Shown one piece after another: positions 1,732 through 14,901 of a stretch of DNA of 64,000 nt. Both the position numbers and the translations under genes were made by a program. A model generated the notes under the pieces. It did no database searches, was not told the DNA's origin, and saw only the letters and a program-made list of their open reading frames with translations. Positions within the stretch are counted from its first letter, which is position 1; every line of letters starts with the position of its first letter. Source of the stretch: Leptospiraceae bacterium (lineage in GTDB: Bacteria; Spirochaetota; Leptospiria; Leptospirales; Leptospiraceae); the NCBI GenBank assembly GCA_022402465.1, contig JAKRSH010000043.1:1-64000 (forward strand). Direction: 5' to 3'.

Positions 1732-2418
1732 ATGAGCAGAATTCAAAACTTAGAATATATATTAGTTCATTTAGATGGAGTGCTTTTAAAGAATATTCTT
1801 GGACCTATTTTGTATTCAATGATGAATTCATTCAATATTCAATACACTCTAGAAGTAGAAAGAAATATTTTAGCAAGACCCTTGGAAGAAATAGGCAATT
1901 ACTTACGTACTGTACATAAAATTTCTTTAAGCAACCATGAACTCTTTGAAACTTACTTAACATTCAGATCCGAATATGAAAGGAATACTGTCATTCATAA
2001 ACAAAATGGTCTCATAGATTTCCTTAACAGAATCCAAGCTCTAGGTCTAAAGCTTATAGCTTATGGAGGAGCACCAAAAGAATATTTCAATCAACATCTA
2101 TCAGAGCATTTGAAGCATTTTATAGAGCCAAGGTATATTCAGACTAGGGACTTTAGACCAGGCTTAATTGAAATTATGAATCAATTGAATGTCTCCTCCC
2201 ATCAAATAATTTTTATAGATGAGGAAGCGAATGTAGGACGAGTTGCGATTTCAAATAAAATTCCATTTATAGGTTTTGAAGATAATTTTGCACACAGCTT
2301 CCAGCCGCTTGAATTAAAGAGTTTGAATTTAGATTATTCTGTATCCTGCTTGAATGAAATAACGGAAGATCTCTTATTGAAAATTGATTCCTCACTGAAT
2401 CGGATAAATCGAAAGTAG
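1732..2418 (+). CDS. HAD-superfamily-like protein with altered nucleophile motif
   Basis: 228 residues. The N-terminus reads ILVHLDGVLL, aligning with HAD motif I (hhhDxDGVL), but the position of the nucleophilic Asp is His13; the second Asp (D15) is kept. A motif IV-like segment (IIFIDEEANVG) and the following AISNKIPFIGF resemble the C-terminal half of beta-phosphoglucomutase-type HAD proteins. Motif II, normally Ser/Thr, appears as YGGAPKEY. If the alignment is right, the usual phospho-aspartate chemistry is lost and the protein may be a binding or regulatory relative. It begins 2 nt after the PilZ stop, implying translational coupling. HAD family is fairly likely; inactivity is inference. 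Confidence 0.6.
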   Translation: MSRIQNLEYILVHLDGVLLKNILGPILYSMMNSFNIQYTLEVERNILARPLEEIGNYLRTVHKISLSNHELFETYLTFRSEYERNTVIHKQNGLIDFLNRIQALGLKLIAYGGAPKEYFNQHLSEHLKHFIEPRYIQTRDFRPGLIEIMNQLNVSSHQIIFIDEEANVGRVAISNKIPFIGFEDNFAHSFQPLELKSLNLDYSVSCLNEITEDLLLKIDSSLNRINRK

Positions 2419-2443: not shown

Positions 2444-3217
2444 ATGAGTGAATTCAATGGTAAGACATTATTAATAACTGGCGGAACGGATGGCATGGGC
2501 TTAGTAACTGCGGAAATGTTTGCAGCCCAAGGTGCCAAGGTTTATATCTCAGGAAGAGATGCAATTAAGGGGAAAGAAGCAAGCGATCAAATTGCAAAGA
2601 AAGGTGGCAACATTAATTTTATACCTTGTGATGTATCTGATCCCAAGCAAGTAGAAGCCTTGGTTGAACAAATTGTCCGGGAGTCTGGCAATCTAGAAAT
2701 TGCATTCAATAATGCAGGGATTACATCTAAGTCACATAGCCCGCTTGACGCCTTCCCTATTGATGAATGGAATTCTATTCTCCAAATCAACTTAAATGGA
2801 ATTTTTTATTCTATGAAGTACCAAATCAAAGCCATGTTAAAGTCTGGGAAATCCTGTTCTATCATTAATAATAGTTCTGTGGCTGGAGTTGTATCCATGC
2901 CTATGCAAGCAGCCTACTCGGCGAGTAAAGCTGGTGTCATCGCACTTTCCAAATCTGCCGCTATTGATTATGCTCAATCGGGAATTCGTATCAATGTGAT
3001 TGCTCCCGGTCCTGTAATGGGAGGGATGAACACTCCAGAAAGATTAAAAGCCAATCCAGCCAGAACACAAAAGAAATTTGATTTAACAGCTATGCACAGA
3101 TTTGCGGAACCTGAAGAAATTGCAAAAACAGTAATTTGGTTAGGCTCAAGTGCTGCTTCTTATATCACCGGTTCAGTAATTATGGTTGATGGAGGTTTTT
3201 CAGCTGGCAAATGGTAA
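2444..3217 (+). CDS. Short-chain dehydrogenase/reductase (SDR)
   Basis: 257 residues, a normal length for a classical SDR. The cofactor motif TGGTDGMG is at residues 12-19, NNAG at 89-92, the catalytic Ser at about 144-145 (NNSSVAG) and YSASK with Tyr158 and Lys162. The C-terminus ends with the common VDGGF. The enzyme is expected to be a soluble NAD(P)H-dependent oxidoreductase of unknown substrate. The start at 2444 has AAGGCAAGG upstream; an ATG a few bases earlier runs straight into a stop. It is the third gene of a run with the PilZ and HAD-like genes, which gives no clue to the substrate. Confidence 0.9.
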   Translation: MSEFNGKTLLITGGTDGMGLVTAEMFAAQGAKVYISGRDAIKGKEASDQIAKKGGNINFIPCDVSDPKQVEALVEQIVRESGNLEIAFNNAGITSKSHSPLDAFPIDEWNSILQINLNGIFYSMKYQIKAMLKSGKSCSIINNSSVAGVVSMPMQAAYSASKAGVIALSKSAAIDYAQSGIRINVIAPGPVMGGMNTPERLKANPARTQKKFDLTAMHRFAEPEEIAKTVIWLGSSAASYITGSVIMVDGGFSAGKW

Positions 3218-3386: not shown

Positions 3387-6300
3387 ATGATAAATATAGA
3401 GAATTACCAAGATATAAAAGAGATTCATTCTGGCAAAAATAGCTTGGTTTTCCGTGCCTTGAAGAATGGCAAACAATACATCATCAAATTACTCAATAAC
3501 GAATACCCAGATGCAGCCCTCATCAACCGATTCCGAAATGAATTCAATAATATCAATAAATTAAAAAGTCCGGGATTGGTCGAAGCAGAAGAATTCATAC
3601 GATACAATAATACATATGCTATAGTTTTCAAAGATATAGATGGTGAGACTATCTATAATCTTTTTAAGAAAGATCATAATTTTTCAATTCAAGAAATTAT
3701 TGAAATTATGATTAAGATTGCACAAGCTTTAGGAAATATACATATTAAAAATGCAGTCCATAATGATATTAAATCTCAGAACATTATTTACAATCATAAA
3801 ACAGGTATATTAAATATTATTGATTTAGGCTCCGTAAGCTTTTTAAACAAACAATACCTCATTACACCTAACAACACATCTATAGAAGGAACTCTTGCGC
3901 ACATTTCACCTGAACAAACAGGACGTATCAATCGTAGTGTAGATTATAGAACTGATTTTTACTCTTTGGGTGTTACCTATTATAATTTATTAACCAATCA
4001 GCTACCTTTTGAATATAAGGATTCCATCTCTCTAGTTCATGCGCATATAGCCAAAAAACCAATCCCGCCTTTTGAGTTAAATAAAACACCTCTAGCTCTT
4101 TCGAATATAGTTCTTAAATTGATGGAAAAAAATCCAGAAGATCGTTATCAAACAGTAGAAGGTTTAGTTTGGGATCTAGAGAAATGCAAAGCTTCCTTAG
4201 AAAAATATGGAATCGATTATCTTAAAAGATATAAATTTGATATTGCTACTAAAGATTTTTCAAGAAAATTTATAATATCAAAAAGATTATTTGGTAGAGA
4301 TAGCGAATTAGAAAAGATTAAAGAAAAATTTGAATCATCATCTAACGGTCACTTTGAGATCTTGTTCGTCTCTGGAAGATCTGGAATTGGAAAGTCTGCA
4401 TTGATCCATGAATTGAATCGATCGATTTCGGAATCAAAAGGATTTTTTGCATCAGGAAAGTATGATAATTACAAAAAATCCATTCCATACCGAGCTTTAT
4501 CTAGAGCTTTTCAGAAGATCATTCAACAGATTTTAAGCCAGAGCCAAGATTCCATCCAAGGCTTTAAAGATAAGATACAACTCGCGCTAGGTGAAAATGG
4601 ACAGATAGTTACACAGGTTATTCCAGAATTAGAAAAATTAATTGGAATACAACCTGATTCAATTCAACTTGATCCTGCTGAAACAGAAAATAGATTTCGA
4701 CTTTCTTTCTTAAATTTTGTAAAAGCCTTATGCAAAGAATCTCATCCCATCACTATATTTTTGGATGATATGCAATGGGCAGATAATTCAAGTATTCAGC
4801 TCTTATCCAATATTATAGCTGATCCTGAACTAAAGTATTTATTCATTATAATGGCTTACCGCGATAATGAAATAAATCCAGCTATGTCATTTTATCATTT
4901 CATGGCCAATTTAAAGAAGAAAGGTCGAGAATTCAATAAAATAGATCTGAATCCAATCGAAGTAAATAGCATAGACAGTTTAATTGCCGATACACTCAAA
5001 ACAAGTCCAGAAGAAGTACATTCACTATCCCAAGTCGTTTTTGCTAAGACTAAAGGAAATCCTTTTTTTGTGAATGAATTTCTAAAGAATTTATATGAAA
5101 ATAAATTGATCTATTTTCAAAAAGAAAAGTGGGCTTGGAATCTAGATAAAATTAATTCCTTAACTATAACTGAAAATGTAATTGATTTAATTATCAAAAA
5201 AATTAGTTCCTTAACAGAGAATAGACTTCATCTCTTGAAAATAGCAGCCTGTATTGGAAATTGGTTTAGACTGGATGTTTTCTTAGATATAGTTGGTGAA
5301 GATGAAAACAAGGTTATGGAAGAATTAATTTTTCTTTCTAATGAAGAATATATTATTCTGGGTGAAAATAATGTTAACTTTGTTCATGATAAAATACATG
5401 AAGCAGTTTATACTTTCCTAACTCCCTCCGAGAAGGCGAAAAATCACAAGCACATAGGATTAAGATATTTTTCAATGCTTGATAAGTTTAAATTGGATGA
5501 ACATATCTTTACCATTGTCAACCAACTAAACTTAGGTGAACTAGATTCTAAAGATAAACAAGAAGTCACCCGATTAATAGATTTAAATTATAGTGCAGGA
5601 GAGAAGGCTCTCAATTCAAATGCATATGAGCAAGCAAACCTCTTCTTTGAAAAAGCGCAATCTTTGCTTCCAGCAAATTCATGGGAAGACAATTATTCTA
5701 GAAACCTAAAGATTTATATAGGTCTTGCTAAATCTGAGTATCTAATCAAGGATTTTACAAAAGCAGAATCGACTTTCAATTTCATCATTGATAAAGCGGA
5801 GTCAATCTTAGATAGAATTCAAATTTATGAAATGAAATCTGCCATGTATGCAAGCCAGAATAAAATGAGTGAAATCATTGAAATTCTGAAACTTGCACTT
5901 AGAGAATTAAACTATTCACTTCCCCAAAAACCTACAGCAGTCTCACCTCTTCCTGAATTAATAAAGTATAAAATTTACCTAAAGGGTAAATCGATTTCAG
6001 AATTAGAGCAATTACCAGAAATGACTGATCTTGTGGATCTCGCCATTATGCGTATTTTGAATGCACTAATTGCACCAGCCTTTATAGGACAGCCTGCACT
6101 TTTTCCAGTTATAGTATTGAAAATGGTTAACCTAACATTGCGTAAAGGTCTTTCGCCGATTAGCCCCTTGGCTTTTGCAGCCTTAGGCATGATCCAAGGT
6201 TTTGGCTTGGGCAATTTTTCCACAGGGTATGAGTTAGGTGAAATTGGGGTAAAATTACTCCAAAAGACAGAATCAAAAATAATAAAATGTAGGGTTTTAT

Positions 6301-9032
6301 TTTTCTTTGCATGCATGATTTCCCATTGGAAAAATCATGCTAAAGATTCATCCAAAATTTTTATTGAATCCCTCCAAGCGGGTTTTGAATCTGGAGAGTT
6401 GCAATATGCATCTTATGCTTTAAATAATCTACATTTTCAAGGAACTCTAAGAAGACAGAAACTTCCAGAATTACAAGAAAGCTTTAATAATTATTACACC
6501 TCTTTGCTTTCTTTAAACCAAATCAATGCTATCCAAATTTATAATTTAGATCGTCAGTTTGTTAATAATTTACTTGGGAATAGTAAAAACATACTACAAA
6601 TAGAAGGCGAACATTTTCAAGAAAGTAAGATCCTTGCGGAATGGATAGAAGCAAAAAACGAAAATGGACTTTTCCAATACTATCTCTCTAAAATGCGATT
6701 GGAATACCTTTTTGGAGATATGAACAAAGCATTTGAATATTCTAATTTATGCTTATCGTATGAATCAGCTGTTTTTAGCATGATGTTTATTCCTGAATCA
6801 GTTTTTTTTCGTGCACTAATTGCTTATCAATTATATAATAAAAATTCCAAAAAATCATTCTTCTTAAATATCATTAAGAGTTCAGCCAAAAGATTAAAAG
6901 TTTGGGCATCTTCAAGCCCTTACAATTACTTTCATAAATACCAAATCATACTAGGGATTTTGCAAGCATGCAAAGATAAACCAGAGTTAGCTTACAATCA
7001 TTTTCAACATGCAATAGACTCTGCTAAACTAAATGAATACTTGCTTGAGGAAGCTCTTGCCAATGAACTATGGGCATTAGTGCTAGAAAGAAACCAACAA
7101 AGCAAATATGCGAATGTGCATTTATTAGAAGCTCATTATATCTATTCAATTTGGGGTTCCAAGCCCAAGGTTAATCTATTAGAAGAAACAAATCCATATT
7201 TCAAATCCTACTCAAAAAGATATATCAAGCTCCAACAAATAGATACTAGCTCACCAACAGTAACCAAAAGAAGCAGTACAACAGATAGTTCTTTCCTTGA
7301 TATAGATACTATTATAAAAGCATCTAGGACACTTTCAGGAAGTATGAAATTAGGAAACCTCCTGGAGAGAATGATGACGATTCTGTTAGAGAATGCTGGT
7401 GCCGATAGAGGTTTCTTTCTACTGAAAGAAAAAGAAAAATGGTATATCCAAGCTGCTGGTCAATCTCAACCAGTAAAGATAGAAGTTCTTCAATCTCAAC
7501 TCTTTCTCGACAATGCAATTCGAGACAATAAAACATTAGATGATACATTTGCTTCAACTGTAATAAATTATGTAATTCATTCAGAAAAGATTGTAATTTT
7601 GCACGATGGAGCTAACGACTCCACTTTTATGAATGATCCTTACATACTTAAATCTAAACCTAAGTCCATCCTATGTTATCCTATCTTTAACCATGGCAAG
7701 TTAAATGCAGTAGTTTATCTTGAGAATAGTCTCACTTCGGATGTGTTCAACTCAGGAAGACTCGAACTTTTAAAAATTTTGGCCGCACAAATCTCTATTT
7801 CATTAGAAAACTCCTTACTTTATTCTAATTTAGAAAGAAAAGTAAGCGAAAGAACAACTAACTTAAATAAGGCTTTGAATGATGTTCAACAACTTAAAGA
7901 AAAGCAAGATGGTGACTACTACCTTACTTCCTTGCTTATTGAGCCCTTGAGTAAGAATCAAGCAAATTCACAAAATGTAAAGATTGAATTTCTAACTGAG
8001 CAAAACAAAAAATTCCAATTTAAAGATTTTAACTCAGAAATTGGTGGAGATCTTTCCGTTGCTGATAGAATAATTCTTCATGATAAAAATTATATTGTAA
8101 TTATGAATGGCGATGCAATGGGAAAATCTATGCAAGGTGCAGGAGGTGCTATTGTATTGGGTTCTGTTTTTGAATCTATGGTTAAAAGAAACCAATTCGA
8201 CAAATCATCAAATAATTTATTTCCAGAAGAATGGTTGAAAAATGCATTTAAAGAACTTCACACAGTCTTTACTACCTTCAATGGTTCAATGCTGGTGTCA
8301 ATTTTCATGGGCTTATTGGATGAGCAGACTGGATTACTTTACTTTATTACAGCTGAGCATCCAAGTCCTGTTTTATTCAGGGACAATAAGGCGAGTTTTA
8401 TCCCATCTCAATTTAATTATACCAAATTAGGTATGCTTAGAACGAATCGAAAAATTTTCATTAATACTTTTGAACTTAAGGATCAAGATGTAATAATTAT
8501 TGGTTCAGATGGCAAAGATGATATTTTTATAAGCTCAAATTCTGGTGATATGACGATCAATGAAGATGAAAATCTTTTTCTAGAAAATGTAGAGTCTTCT
8601 AAAGGAAATTTAATCGATATTATTCGAAGAATTAAAGCACAGGGTGATTTAATGGATGATATTTCTTTGGTGAGACTTAGCTACAGCGAAGCATTGCAAG
8701 AAGATTTTGCAAGCACACCTCCCCTATTAAATTCTATATTACTAAGCAATCCAAATATATTTAAGTCTGAATATTTCAATCAGATGATAAAAAAATATAT
8801 AAATTTTTCAATTAATTCCAGTTCAGAAAGCATCCAATACCTTTACTTAATTTCTTTAGTATTTAGAAAATTAAAAAATTTCCAATCTGCAATTCAATAT
8901 TCAGAGAGAATTCGCTTAAGAGATCCTTACAACCGTAGAAACTTAAATTTACTGAAAAATCTTTACCGCCTAAATGGCGACCAAATGCAAGAAGGCAAAA
9001 TCGCAATTCAAATTGCAAATCTTAAAAATTAA
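3387..9032 (+). CDS. Giant Ser/Thr kinase - AAA ATPase - GAF - SpoIIE phosphatase protein
   Basis: 1881 residues, cytoplasmic, no membrane segment. In order: a protein kinase domain (about 10-275) with HND at 125-127 in place of HRD, DLG from Asp146, and SPEQTGRINR after the activation segment; an AAA-type ATPase with Walker A GRSGIGKS (Lys336) and Walker B FLDDMQWAD (Asp460/461); a long helical repeat region (about 700-1290); a GAF domain (about 1305-1485); a short coiled coil; and a SpoIIE/PP2C phosphatase domain with GGD (Asp1555), GDAMGKS (Asp1576), SDG (Asp1708) and DD (1757/1758). The first GGDxxD Asp is kept but the second position is not. The SPEQTGR hallmark belongs to multi-sensor kinases of the cyanobacterial HstK type, which usually end in a histidine kinase; here a phosphatase takes that place. 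Kinase and phosphatase in one chain suggest a self-contained switch, probably acting on an anti-sigma antagonist type target. Confidence 0.9.
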   Translation: MINIENYQDIKEIHSGKNSLVFRALKNGKQYIIKLLNNEYPDAALINRFRNEFNNINKLKSPGLVEAEEFIRYNNTYAIVFKDIDGETIYNLFKKDHNFSIQEIIEIMIKIAQALGNIHIKNAVHNDIKSQNIIYNHKTGILNIIDLGSVSFLNKQYLITPNNTSIEGTLAHISPEQTGRINRSVDYRTDFYSLGVTYYNLLTNQLPFEYKDSISLVHAHIAKKPIPPFELNKTPLALSNIVLKLMEKNPEDRYQTVEGLVWDLEKCKASLEKYGIDYLKRYKFDIATKDFSRKFIISKRLFGRDSELEKIKEKFESSSNGHFEILFVSGRSGIGKSALIHELNRSISESKGFFASGKYDNYKKSIPYRALSRAFQKIIQQILSQSQDSIQGFKDKIQLALGENGQIVTQVIPELEKLIGIQPDSIQLDPAETENRFRLSFLNFVKALCKESHPITIFLDDMQWADNSSIQLLSNIIADPELKYLFIIMAYRDNEINPAMSFYHFMANLKKKGREFNKIDLNPIEVNSIDSLIADTLKTSPEEVHSLSQVVFAKTKGNPFFVNEFLKNLYENKLIYFQKEKWAWNLDKINSLTITENVIDLIIKKISSLTENRLHLLKIAACIGNWFRLDVFLDIVGEDENKVMEELIFLSNEEYIILGENNVNFVHDKIHEAVYTFLTPSEKAKNHKHIGLRYFSMLDKFKLDEHIFTIVNQLNLGELDSKDKQEVTRLIDLNYSAGEKALNSNAYEQANLFFEKAQSLLPANSWEDNYSRNLKIYIGLAKSEYLIKDFTKAESTFNFIIDKAESILDRIQIYEMKSAMYASQNKMSEIIEILKLALRELNYSLPQKPTAVSPLPELIKYKIYLKGKSISELEQLPEMTDLVDLAIMRILNALIAPAFIGQPALFPVIVLKMVNLTLRKGLSPISPLAFAALGMIQGFGLGNFSTGYELGEIGVKLLQKTESKIIKCRVLFFFACMISHWKNHAKDSSKIFIESLQAGFESGELQYASYALNNLHFQGTLRRQKLPELQESFNNYYTSLLSLNQINAIQIYNLDRQFVNNLLGNSKNILQIEGEHFQESKILAEWIEAKNENGLFQYYLSKMRLEYLFGDMNKAFEYSNLCLSYESAVFSMMFIPESVFFRALIAYQLYNKNSKKSFFLNIIKSSAKRLKVWASSSPYNYFHKYQIILGILQACKDKPELAYNHFQHAIDSAKLNEYLLEEALANELWALVLERNQQSKYANVHLLEAHYIYSIWGSKPKVNLLEETNPYFKSYSKRYIKLQQIDTSSPTVTKRSSTTDSSFLDIDTIIKASRTLSGSMKLGNLLERMMTILLENAGADRGFFLLKEKEKWYIQAAGQSQPVKIEVLQSQLFLDNAIRDNKTLDDTFASTVINYVIHSEKIVILHDGANDSTFMNDPYILKSKPKSILCYPIFNHGKLNAVVYLENSLTSDVFNSGRLELLKILAAQISISLENSLLYSNLERKVSERTTNLNKALNDVQQLKEKQDGDYYLTSLLIEPLSKNQANSQNVKIEFLTEQNKKFQFKDFNSEIGGDLSVADRIILHDKNYIVIMNGDAMGKSMQGAGGAIVLGSVFESMVKRNQFDKSSNNLFPEEWLKNAFKELHTVFTTFNGSMLVSIFMGLLDEQTGLLYFITAEHPSPVLFRDNKASFIPSQFNYTKLGMLRTNRKIFINTFELKDQDVIIIGSDGKDDIFISSNSGDMTINEDENLFLENVESSKGNLIDIIRRIKAQGDLMDDISLVRLSYSEALQEDFASTPPLLNSILLSNPNIFKSEYFNQMIKKYINFSINSSSESIQYLYLISLVFRKLKNFQSAIQYSERIRLRDPYNRRNLNLLKNLYRLNGDQMQEGKIAIQIANLKN

Positions 9033-9813: not shown

Positions 9814-10644
9814 ATGAATACAATAGCAAAACAGCAATTCTTAGATGAACCAACTGATGTTCTACTCATCCAAGAATCTTTACAAGGCAACAAGAAGTCC
9901 TTAGAAAGTTTACTTGCTAGGCACAAGGATTTTATTTACAATCTTTCATTGAGAATGTTTTTAGATCCTGATGATGCTATGGATGCAACACAAGATATCC
10001 TGATTAAAGTAATCACATCATTACAAAGTTTTCAAGGAAAAAGCCAATTTCGCACTTGGCTTTATAGAATTGTAGTGAACCATTTTCTAAATTCAGAAAA
10101 AAGAAAAATGGAGCACTGGATAGATCGTTCCTCAAGTATTTCAGAAATTAAATCGCAAGCAGAAAATGAAGATGAGATACCTGAAGAAACTATAGAAGAA
10201 GTTCGCATCTTATGTTCAACAGCTATGTTGATGTGCCTAAACAGAGAACAAAGATTGCTATATATACTTGGTGAGGTTTTTGAAATTGATCACAATATTG
10301 GAGCAACATTGTTCCAACTTACAAAAGGAAATTATAGAATCAAATTGCATAGGGCTAAGAAAGATTTATTGGAATTTGTATCAGGAAGATGCGGTTTGAT
10401 CAATCCATCGAATTCTTGTCGTTGCAAAAAGAAGACAAAGGCTTTAATCCAAGAAGGTAAAGTAAATTCTAAACAATTAAAATTTAACTCTTCTTATACT
10501 CAAAGCGTACTAAAAATACTCTACCAGCAAAGAATTCCTACGAGTTATAAGATTCAAATAGATATGAAAAATTTATTCCAAGAAAATCCCTACCAAATTA
10601 AAGAAGAATTAGATGATCTATTGGAAAATTTGCTAACTAGTTAA
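9814..10644 (+). CDS. ECF-type RNA polymerase sigma factor with Cys-containing C-terminal extension
   Basis: 276 residues. Region 2 is clear: DPDDAMDATQDILIKV followed by FQGKSQFRTWLYRIVVNHFL. Region 4 is more divergent (NREQRLLYILGEVFEIDHN, then YRIKLHRAKKDL). Beyond it lies CGLINPSNSCRC with Cys193, Cys202 and Cys204, a conserved-looking signature I associate with a subset of ECF factors and which could hold a metal or respond to oxidation. About 70 further residues follow with no known domain. ECF factors direct RNA polymerase to stress or envelope promoters; no anti-sigma factor gene is adjacent, so control may lie in the protein's own tail or in the leader hairpin. The start has AGAAGGAAAG in front. 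Confidence 0.85.
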   Translation: MNTIAKQQFLDEPTDVLLIQESLQGNKKSLESLLARHKDFIYNLSLRMFLDPDDAMDATQDILIKVITSLQSFQGKSQFRTWLYRIVVNHFLNSEKRKMEHWIDRSSSISEIKSQAENEDEIPEETIEEVRILCSTAMLMCLNREQRLLYILGEVFEIDHNIGATLFQLTKGNYRIKLHRAKKDLLEFVSGRCGLINPSNSCRCKKKTKALIQEGKVNSKQLKFNSSYTQSVLKILYQQRIPTSYKIQIDMKNLFQENPYQIKEELDDLLENLLTS

Positions 10645-12344: not shown

Positions 12345-13894
12345 TCTTCTACTCCAACATAATAAGCAACTACGAAGTACCCTACCATTCCAAAACTCAA
12401 AACGAAGGCAAGTAAAATTCTAGAACTATTCGCATGACCAAAACCAAAACTCTTTAGAGCAATCATCAAATCTAAATAAAAAAAATGATTCAATACATAA
12501 GTCCAGACAATCAAGAAGGTAAGTGGTAGCAAAATTTTTAAAACTTTCGGAATCATATCATTCAGGGGAATATAGACATTATGCCTTTTCATTGAAATGA
12601 AAAGTATGACACTGGTTGCAAGAGAAGAACAAGCTGATGCAAAAGCAATACTACCATGCTTTAAGCTTCCCATCAAACTAAGAGCAATTACCAAACTAAA
12701 AACAAACGTAAATGCCTGAACTCTCAAGGGCGTCTTAGTATCTTGAAAAGCATAGTAACATGATATCATAATTTTATTCAAACTATAAAATGGAATCGCT
12801 AATGCATAGAAGCCCAAAGGAACAATTGTTGTTTCTGTAGCAAGATCATCCCATCTTCCACCAAAATAAATAGAATCTAAAACCAATTTACCCACAGTAA
12901 TTAAGCCTACACTCGCTGGCAGAGTTAGAAATAATGAAAATACAAAGCTGTTACCTATTTCTTTTGGTATTAAATCATGTTCTGCTTTCTTAACCTTAGA
13001 TAGAACGGTAGGCAAGATTGTCGTCGCAAGTGCCACTCCTATAATTCCCGTTGGAAGCTGAACCAATCTTTGAGCATAGTCTAGACTCACTACAGCACCC
13101 AAACCTGGATTGTTGTTTTGAATATAATTTGCGATAAAAATATCAACCAAGAGTCCCAATTGGTAGAAACCCCCACCAAGAACAGCGGGTAACATCAGTT
13201 TGAATATTTTGCGAATTGCAGGATGCTTCCAATTCAGATTCATACTTGGACCGAATCCTTTGTATATCACATAATAAGCTTGCAATAGAAGTTGTAGAAC
13301 ACCTCCTGCAACTACTCCAAAAGAAAGTACGAAAACCTTATCTAGTATTGTTTTGGTAAAAGGGAATAGAACAATAAATACAAAAATATAACTTAAATTT
13401 AATAAAATTGGTGAGAGAGAAGGAATAAAGTAATTCTCATGCGAATTAGAAATTGCCATGAAAATGGAAGAGAGACTCGCAGTCATTATGAGAAAAAATA
13501 GTATAAAAGATAATTCAATTATTAGATTAGAATATTCTGCTGTTCCTCCCACTAAGGCAGGAATAAAGTATGGTGCAGAAATTAAAAAGCCAGCAATGAA
13601 TATACTTAATAAAAAGAATAAAAAAGAAAGAACTGAGCCAGTCATTACCTGAGCTTCTTCCTTGCTTCGATTTTCGTATTCTGCAAATATAGGCATAAAA
13701 GATTGAGAGAGAGTACCTTCAGCTAGAAGATTACGGAACATATTGGGAAGTCTATAAGCAACGGAAAAAGCTGAGGCAACCATTCCAGTCCCAAAGCTAG
13801 TTGCCATAAAATGATCACGAAGTAAGCCCATGACCCTTGAAAGCATAGTATAGAAGGAAAGAGCTATACTCTTCTTGGTACTAGAATTGCTCAC
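12311..13894 (-). CDS. murJ: Lipid II flippase MurJ
   Basis: 527 residues with about 14 hydrophobic segments, the usual MurJ size. The N-terminus has the family signature SRVMGLLRDHFMATSFG and then RLPNMFRNLLAEGTLSQSF. MurJ moves lipid II across the inner membrane for peptidoglycan synthesis and is essential in most bacteria. The start codon overlaps the stop of the STAS gene in a 4-nt ATGA arrangement, so the two are translationally coupled. It is the fourth gene of a minus-strand run beginning with lipB, and the lipoprotein gene overlaps its 3' end. Confidence 0.95.
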   Translation of the reverse strand: MSNSSTKKSIALSFYTMLSRVMGLLRDHFMATSFGTGMVASAFSVAYRLPNMFRNLLAEGTLSQSFMPIFAEYENRSKEEAQVMTGSVLSFLFFLLSIFIAGFLISAPYFIPALVGGTAEYSNLIIELSFILFFLIMTASLSSIFMAISNSHENYFIPSLSPILLNLSYIFVFIVLFPFTKTILDKVFVLSFGVVAGGVLQLLLQAYYVIYKGFGPSMNLNWKHPAIRKIFKLMLPAVLGGGFYQLGLLVDIFIANYIQNNNPGLGAVVSLDYAQRLVQLPTGIIGVALATTILPTVLSKVKKAEHDLIPKEIGNSFVFSLFLTLPASVGLITVGKLVLDSIYFGGRWDDLATETTIVPLGFYALAIPFYSLNKIMISCYYAFQDTKTPLRVQAFTFVFSLVIALSLMGSLKHGSIAFASACSSLATSVILFISMKRHNVYIPLNDMIPKVLKILLPLTFLIVWTYVLNHFFYLDLMIALKSFGFGHANSSRILLAFVLSFGMVGYFVVAYYVGVEECKTIFGKFIK

Positions 13895-14901
13895 AAAAGT
13901 TTTTCTAAGAAAGAGGTAGAGCCATTTTCGTTGAAAGTAAATTCAACTAGACAAGCAGGGCATTTGTATTTTCCAAAATCTCTGACTCTAAGTCTTGTTC
14001 CACATGCCTCGCAAAATACCAATTCAGATTTATCTTCAAGATTTGATTTAGTACTAGGATGTTCATTTTTATTGGATGAGGTAGTTTCTGGATGGTGCAA
14101 TCTATTAGCCTCAGAAGATTCCCCACTAGAACGAATGTTAGAAGGAATTGCGGAAAGAATTCTATTGATTCCTTCATTCACTTCCCATTTTAATTCTTTA
14201 CTGAGTTGAGACTTCATCTCTTGGATTTTTCCTTCCAAGGGATCTAACATACTGGGAGAATCTGAACTAATATTTTGCTCTTCAATTGGTTCCAGACTAG
14301 ATATTTTTTCAGATGAGATTTGACTCGCTTTTTGCCAAGAAGATAAAGGGCTTGGAGCATCTATCTTCCATTTTTGGCTTTTTACCAAGGAAGAAGTTCT
14401 TTCGTTTTCTGAACTGTCGAAAGAAGTAGAAGACCTTATTTTGGAAGATGGTTTTGCATGTCCCTTATAGTAGAACTGAATTTGATTTGCTTGTTTCGTT
14501 TTTCTCTCTAATGGATTAGCTAACTCTTGCTTAATTTTAGTTTGAGAATGGTAAAGTGGCAGTCTTGCAAGATAGCTCTTGGCTTCTTCAAGATTATTAT
14601 AAATTTTCAAACGATTCTCAAGACCAAATAAGCGAAGCAATTTTGTAACCTCTAGATTCATCTGGGTCAAGATATAGACTATTTTAGAATTGGATTTCAT
14701 CTTTACGGAAAGCCTAAGTAAGAAGGAAATTCCACCAGAGGAAAGAGATTCTAAGTGGGAACAATCCAATAGAAATTTCTGGTAACCTGCCGAAATTCTA
14801 GTTTCTAGATACTCTTCTAAATCTCTAGAATTGGAAGTATCTAGTATTCCTTTTAGATAGACGATCAAACTACTTTCTGATTCTAAGGCTCTAACTTCCA
14901 T
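13891..14901 (-). CDS. STAS domain protein with C-terminal zinc ribbon
   Basis: 336 residues. Residues 1-110 form a STAS (anti-sigma antagonist) domain: the segment LDCSHLESLSSGGISFLLRL matches the phospho-acceptor loop, with SSG in place of the usual DSSG. A long Ser/Lys-rich, probably disordered linker follows, and the C-terminus holds CEAC...CPAC, a four-Cys zinc ribbon. STAS antagonists work in partner-switching with kinases and SpoIIE phosphatases. The gene overlaps the sensor gene upstream by 11 nt and murJ downstream by 4 nt. The large phosphatase protein at 3.4-9.0 kb is a conceivable partner, but nothing in the sequence proves it. Confidence 0.8.
   Translation of the reverse strand: MEVRALESESSLIVYLKGILDTSNSRDLEEYLETRISAGYQKFLLDCSHLESLSSGGISFLLRLSVKMKSNSKIVYILTQMNLEVTKLLRLFGLENRLKIYNNLEEAKSYLARLPLYHSQTKIKQELANPLERKTKQANQIQFYYKGHAKPSSKIRSSTSFDSSENERTSSLVKSQKWKIDAPSPLSSWQKASQISSEKISSLEPIEEQNISSDSPSMLDPLEGKIQEMKSQLSKELKWEVNEGINRILSAIPSNIRSSGESSEANRLHHPETTSSNKNEHPSTKSNLEDKSELVFCEACGTRLRVRDFGKYKCPACLVEFTFNENGSTSFLEKLL

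Follow-up and report, generated by a model that had tools for sequence, protein, structure and literature searches.

Organization of the locus

The window, meaning the whole stretch of 64,000 nucleotides of the Leptospiraceae contig that was analysed, carries at positions 3387-9032 of the forward strand a single open reading frame, running from an ATG to a stop codon and encoding a chain of 1881 residues (P0001). An earlier note had read a kinase, an ATPase, a GAF domain and a SpoIIE phosphatase in this one chain, and the Pfam domain search confirmed all four, each over its curated cut-off. The chain begins with a Hanks-type Ser/Thr kinase domain (Pkinase, residues 7-256, positions 3405-4154, E-value 1.6e-33), followed by a STAND-type ATPase (AAA_16, residues 300-488, positions 4284-4850, E-value 5.3e-34) with the Walker A motif GRSGIGKS and the Walker B motif FLDD. 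No Pfam match was found between residues ~640 and 1300; this middle region (about residues 641-1300, positions 5307-7286) is common to all family chains and, judging from its sequence, probably consists of helical repeats. The GAF domain (residues 1324-1473, positions 7356-7805, E-value 2.4e-13), detected by Pfam and present in the structural model, leads through a continuous helix (residues 1456-1521, positions 7752-7949) to the SpoIIE/PP2C phosphatase domain (residues 1567-1765, positions 8085-8681, E-value 2.6e-21). The C-terminal tail (residues 1781-1881, positions 8727-9029) is TPR-like: it is helical in the model and matches TPR_19 in relatives.

Three genes of the same strand lie upstream. 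The first encodes a 415-residue protein with an AfsA-type hotdog domain over the Pfam cut-off and a PilZ-like C-terminal domain (positions 482-1729), the second a HAD-like protein of 228 residues with a weak HAD match (positions 1732-2418), in which a histidine replaces the nucleophile aspartate, and the third a short-chain dehydrogenase/reductase (SDR) of 257 residues identified by Pfam (positions 2444-3217). The PilZ-like domain is just over its Pfam cut-off and hints at a possible control by cyclic di-GMP. On the other side, a sigma-70 family (ECF-type) sigma factor gene is located two genes 3′ of the chain (positions 9814-10644). Promoter and terminator scans gave results at chance level.

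The phosphatase end

The phosphatase assignment in the earlier note hinged on a PP2C/SpoIIE profile match, and that match was found over the Pfam cut-off. All the metal-binding aspartate motifs are also present in the 1881-residue chain (IGGD, NGDAMGK, SDG and MDD), and phosphatase activity is predicted. An AlphaFold model of residues 1300-1881 (mean pLDDT 83) shows, in order, the GAF domain, the unbroken helix of residues 1456-1521, a PP2C-type fold and the helical tail. Searched against the PDB by fold, this model retrieved RssB, the RsbU part of Rv1364c and then, lower, SpoIIE, while the phosphatase piece, when compared with the PDB by sequence, yielded RssB alone, as a weak match (E 0.22). 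Because the modeled helix runs unbroken from the GAF domain to the phosphatase, control of the latter by the former is plausible. SpoIIE itself is switched through a regulatory helix and switch helices (PMC5468089).

Exchangeable outputs on a common front

A search of the source genome with the chain returned 18 matches, consisting of four long chains, several stand-alone proteins that correspond to the phosphatase end only, and a few weak matches; many further long chains were found in 40 relatives. From the fetched loci, 76 family chains were taken and classed by their C-terminal end, the classes resting on Pfam for 20 ends, all in agreement, and on sequence clusters and motifs for the others. 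These outputs comprise 38 SpoIIE phosphatases, 21 members of the histidine-kinase class (including L030, whose sequence ends before the output), 15 nucleotide cyclases and two GGDEF-EAL ends. Chains ending in a phosphatase are not confined to the source genome: public sequences also show them in a Chloroflexaceae MAG, a Spirochaetes MAG and Marivirga, and the cyanobacterium Kovacikia minuta carries this architecture on a plasmid.

A quick tree of all 76 chains, for which the kinase part was left out, requires at least 25 changes of output, and 12 changes of the SpoIIE label are forced by well-supported branches alone. A more careful tree of 20 rows placed chains with different outputs as sisters: a SpoIIE-ended and a histidine-kinase-ended chain (L020 and L053, support 100/99), a SpoIIE-ended and a GGDEF-EAL-ended chain (L102 and L022, support 99/98), and a cyclase-ended and a phosphatase-ended chain (support 100/99). 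The first of these pairs shares 46-86% identity up to about residue 1500 and only the background level beyond. The alignments thus place the swap point at the helix after the GAF domain, and the phosphatase is, as far as can be judged from sequence, one of several exchangeable endings on a common front made of kinase, ATPase, middle region and GAF domain. The domain content given in the earlier note was correct, and the exchange extends beyond phosphatase and histidine kinase to cyclase and GGDEF-EAL outputs.

AfsA-type genes beside the sensor chain

In the relatives search, which included the source genome, an AfsA-type match was found in nine of 41 genomes, one in each, and over the phylum Spirochaetota the family occurs in 15 of 393 genomes. 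The AfsA gene adjoins a family chain, co-directional or divergent, in 11 of the 14 readable cases (G000, G005, G006, G007, G014, G015, G036, G088, G132, G157 and G174). Among the remaining cases, the gene lies at a contig edge in G026, stands without a chain on an 8-kb contig in G065 and is located elsewhere in G208 and G252. In these last two genomes, the AfsA and SDR genes adjoin a chemoreceptor-like gene (L202, L203) instead of a kinase chain; an MCP domain was detected by Pfam in L203, the Pfam assignment covering G208 only and that of G252 being made by similarity. The probability of the observed adjacency under random placement is below 1e-11, a value that assumes independent genomes, which these are not. 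Most family chains have no AfsA neighbour.

The composition of the cluster varies. In G014 and G015, the chain homologue is immediately preceded by homologues of the AfsA, HAD-like and SDR genes, while G006 and G007 carry AfsA and HAD-family genes upstream of the chain and the SDR is absent from the cluster in G006, G007 and G036. The HAD-like protein displays HLDG for DxDG in G000, G014 and G015 (window 1732-2418; L159 8234-8926; L160 17683-18360), so the HAD nucleophile is missing in these three genomes; the relatives in G005, G006, G007 and G036 retain it. Several local arrangements were also noted. A short AfsA-type remnant lies directly upstream of an otherwise intact chain in contig C51 of G003 (L155 8284-8505), and in contig C47 of G006 AfsA and two HAD-family genes are followed by a tandem pair of phosphatase-ended chains (L055 1498-7158 and 7228-12981). 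In three genomes that belong to one family, a gene of about 300 residues lies between AfsA and the chain (L204 13720-14631, L205 13417-14322 and L206 3373-4305), with a LytB match in L205, the one tested by Pfam.

The AfsA-linked chains do not all group together in the chain tree, and they end in SpoIIE, in GGDEF-EAL, in a PAS-histidine kinase-receiver module or, in one distant relative (G088), in SpoIIE joined to an RsbW-type ATPase within the chain. A 1951-residue chain of this kind, with kinase, ATPase, GAF, SpoIIE and RsbW-type ATPase, is found next to AfsA at L208 1353-7208. The constant elements of these loci are a synthase-like gene and a sensor, and it is the output that varies.

What the upstream genes produce can be read in two ways. 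They could supply a signal to the chain, or they could make an internal metabolite or lipid that is regulated by the chain and whose product the chain does not bind. This second reading carries a real, if minority, share of the probability. The AfsA-type protein scores well short of the 200 bits required by the NCBIfam butyrolactone synthase equivalog NF041195 (36 bits for the window protein and 43-70 bits for relatives), SDR enzymes are common, and the PilZ-like domain suggests intracellular control. However, the constant neighbour is a sensor with a varying output, as would be expected of a receptor, and the AfsA-SDR pair of G208, like that of G252 as judged by similarity, has a chemoreceptor-like gene as its neighbour instead.

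Kinase and phosphatase within one chain

The kinase domain contains the SPEQTGR motif reported in the earlier note (residues 174-180), which had also read correctly HND and DLG in place of HRD and DFG; the catalytic aspartate is retained in both. We rejected the idea that these changes indicate a dead kinase, since they are mild variants that keep the catalytic aspartate. The residue set of active kinases (Lys, Glu, HxD Asp, Asn and DFG Asp) is complete in the 1881-residue chain, and K34, E52, D127, N132 and D146 are invariant in an alignment of 18 sequences, the relatives carrying HKD, HRD or HND and DFG, DLG or DYG. The kinase aligns with PknB, and an AlphaFold model of residues 1-640 (mean pLDDT 82.7) matches the PknA and Stk1/PknB kinases. 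From these residues, the kinase of this chain looks intact and is predicted to be active. A genome search identified four Hanks kinases in the source genome, all in chains of this family and all with a SpoIIE end, established by Pfam for three and by motif alignment for the fourth.

The two activities are not conserved to the same extent. Every one of the 38 phosphatase-ended chains has its set of phosphatase motifs (GGD or SGD, D-x-x-GK/GH, DG and DD), and kinase catalytic residues are lost in eight of them, the HxD aspartate being gone in all eight. Loss of the kinase was also observed in cyclase-ended and histidine-kinase-ended chains. One decayed kinase belongs to the source genome itself (L050, contig C19), with YNR for HRD and GLG for DFG above an intact phosphatase end. 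Since the phosphatase has outlasted the kinase in the eight chains, opposition of the two on a common substrate cannot be the general rule.

The proposal that opposing activities on one target form a single-protein switch is consequently unsupported as a rule for the family, given the exchanged outputs and the eight lost kinases of 38. For the 1881-residue chain alone, whose kinase is apparently intact, an opposed switch is possible. A true bifunctional switch would have kinase and phosphatase share a Ser/Thr substrate, for instance a STAS protein, as the kinase and phosphatase domains of Rv1364c do, and the GAF domain would set the balance. The completeness of both active sites in this chain, the occurrence of all four Hanks kinases of the genome in phosphatase-ended chains and the precedents of Rv1364c and AceK speak for such a device, which we nevertheless regard as unlikely: elsewhere the same front bears a histidine kinase, a cyclase or GGDEF-EAL, the kinase has decayed in eight of the 38 phosphatase-ended chains, one of them in the source genome, and the usual kinases of STAS proteins are of the RsbW type, whose presence is suggested by the HATPase_c_2 matches of this genome. 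A kinase and a phosphatase in one chain do not in themselves make a switch; the comparison shows their pairing to be a single instance of modular construction. Action in cis, in which the phosphatase would mainly reverse the autophosphorylation of its own chain as a self-resetting timer, has the intact residues of both domains in one chain in its favor and is very improbable, as the phosphatase is retained where the kinase is lost and the phosphatase end shares 40-50% identity with phosphatases that stand alone, without a kinase, in this genome.

Regarding the substrate, the earlier note had pointed to the STAS protein encoded at 13.9-14.9 kb (positions 13891-14901), and no special link with the chain emerged. 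This protein is one among the genome's 29 STAS matches, 28 of them over the cut-off. It has only weak homologues in the relatives, and in the flanking sequence read around their chains neither its gene nor any other of that region has a counterpart; lacking linkage, it was rejected as the dedicated substrate. The same genome contains 13 HATPase_c_2 matches over the cut-off, a family that includes the RsbW-type kinases. The downstream ydhR-like protein and the ECF sigma factor were likewise rejected as partners, since the flanks analysed around the relatives' chains carry no homologue of either.

Proposed mechanism

The reading that we favor, with somewhat better than even confidence, is that of an HstK-like multi-domain sensor whose exchangeable output is here a SpoIIE/PP2C phosphatase and whose signal is plausibly made by the AfsA/HAD/SDR neighbours. 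The front would bind a signal and undergo an ATP-dependent rearrangement, perhaps accompanied by autophosphorylation of the kinase. By analogy with the regulatory helix of SpoIIE, this rearrangement would move the helix between the GAF domain and the phosphatase and thereby switch the latter. The target of the phosphatase would then be a phosphoserine protein, in all likelihood from among the many STAS proteins of the genome. Less certainly, the signal or its precursor would be made by the adjacent AfsA/HAD/SDR genes, making the locus a synthase-receptor pair. The intact appearance of the kinase in the 1881-residue chain is a counterpoint to this sensor reading, which leaves its purpose unexplained.

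The 1881-residue chain may thus be the receptor of a small-molecule signal. A butyrolactone-like ligand from the AfsA neighbour is only a hypothesis, because the AfsA-type protein is far below the synthase cut-off and the HAD-like protein has a histidine for the nucleophile aspartate. Extended to the phylum, we put forward as a tentative and rather doubtful proposal that Spirochaetota use an AfsA-type small-molecule signal between cells, with a receptor that, unlike those of Streptomyces, would be a kinase-ATPase-GAF chain delivering its output through a phosphatase, a histidine kinase, GGDEF-EAL or a phosphatase with an RsbW-type ATPase.

Should the locus prove to be a synthase-receptor pair, small-molecule signalling in Leptospira-like spirochaetes would have a candidate open to direct test, and HstK-type chains, whose inputs have been largely obscure so far, would have a candidate ligand source. 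The naturally swapped outputs also make it easy to compare chains with a shared front and to study how the signal passes from GAF to output.

Comparison with known systems

The likeness to HstK-type dual kinases (PMC2176072), proposed in the earlier note, was borne out: Hanks kinase, AAA-type ATPase, long middle region and GAF domain follow in the same order, with about 29-35% identity over residues 1-1468. Chains of this type are publicly named as in WP_259061109.1, annotated "trifunctional serine/threonine-protein kinase/ATP-binding protein/sensor histidine kinase". They end in HisKA-HATPase, whereas the 1881-residue chain has no C-terminal histidine kinase and ends in SpoIIE; it therefore shares the sensor half of HstK and is not a strict dual kinase.

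Fusions of a kinase with a PP2C/SpoIIE-like phosphatase, as well as dual kinases, were described by Krupa and Srinivasan (2005, PMC1262709). The Pseudomonas fusions likewise combine a Hanks kinase and a PP2C/SpoIIE-like phosphatase in one chain, but with the phosphatase N-terminal to the kinase and apparently without an ATPase-GAF middle. Bifunctional kinase-phosphatases, including Rv1364c and AceK, have been reviewed (PMC9138534). Rv1364c from Mycobacterium tuberculosis, whose RsbU-RsbW structure is the second fold match of the model of residues 1300-1881, also unites a sensor domain, an RsbU-type phosphatase and a kinase in one chain, but its kinase is RsbW-type instead of Hanks-type and it has its own STAS domain; neither an RsbW-type kinase nor a STAS domain was found by Pfam in the 1881-residue chain. 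SpoIIE from Bacillus subtilis shares the PP2C phosphatase fold placed after a regulatory helix, but is a membrane protein without kinase, ATPase or GAF.

The upstream gene resembles the AfsA/ScbA butyrolactone synthases in its AfsA hotdog domain, which is over the cut-off, and in the adjoining SDR reductase gene. It differs from them in its score on the synthase model (36-70 bits with its relatives, against the 200-bit cut-off) and in having a single AfsA match followed by a PilZ-like domain. AfsA/ScbA systems pair with a TetR-type receptor, and the sensor linked here is not TetR-type. In the open-access literature searched, no paper was found on kinase-AAA-GAF-SpoIIE chains, on SpoIIE kinases in Leptospira or on AfsA in spirochaetes. 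Fusion of a kinase with a PP2C/SpoIIE-like phosphatase and chains of the HstK type were already known; what is new is the conserved pairing of AfsA with the sensor, which is the part meriting follow-up.
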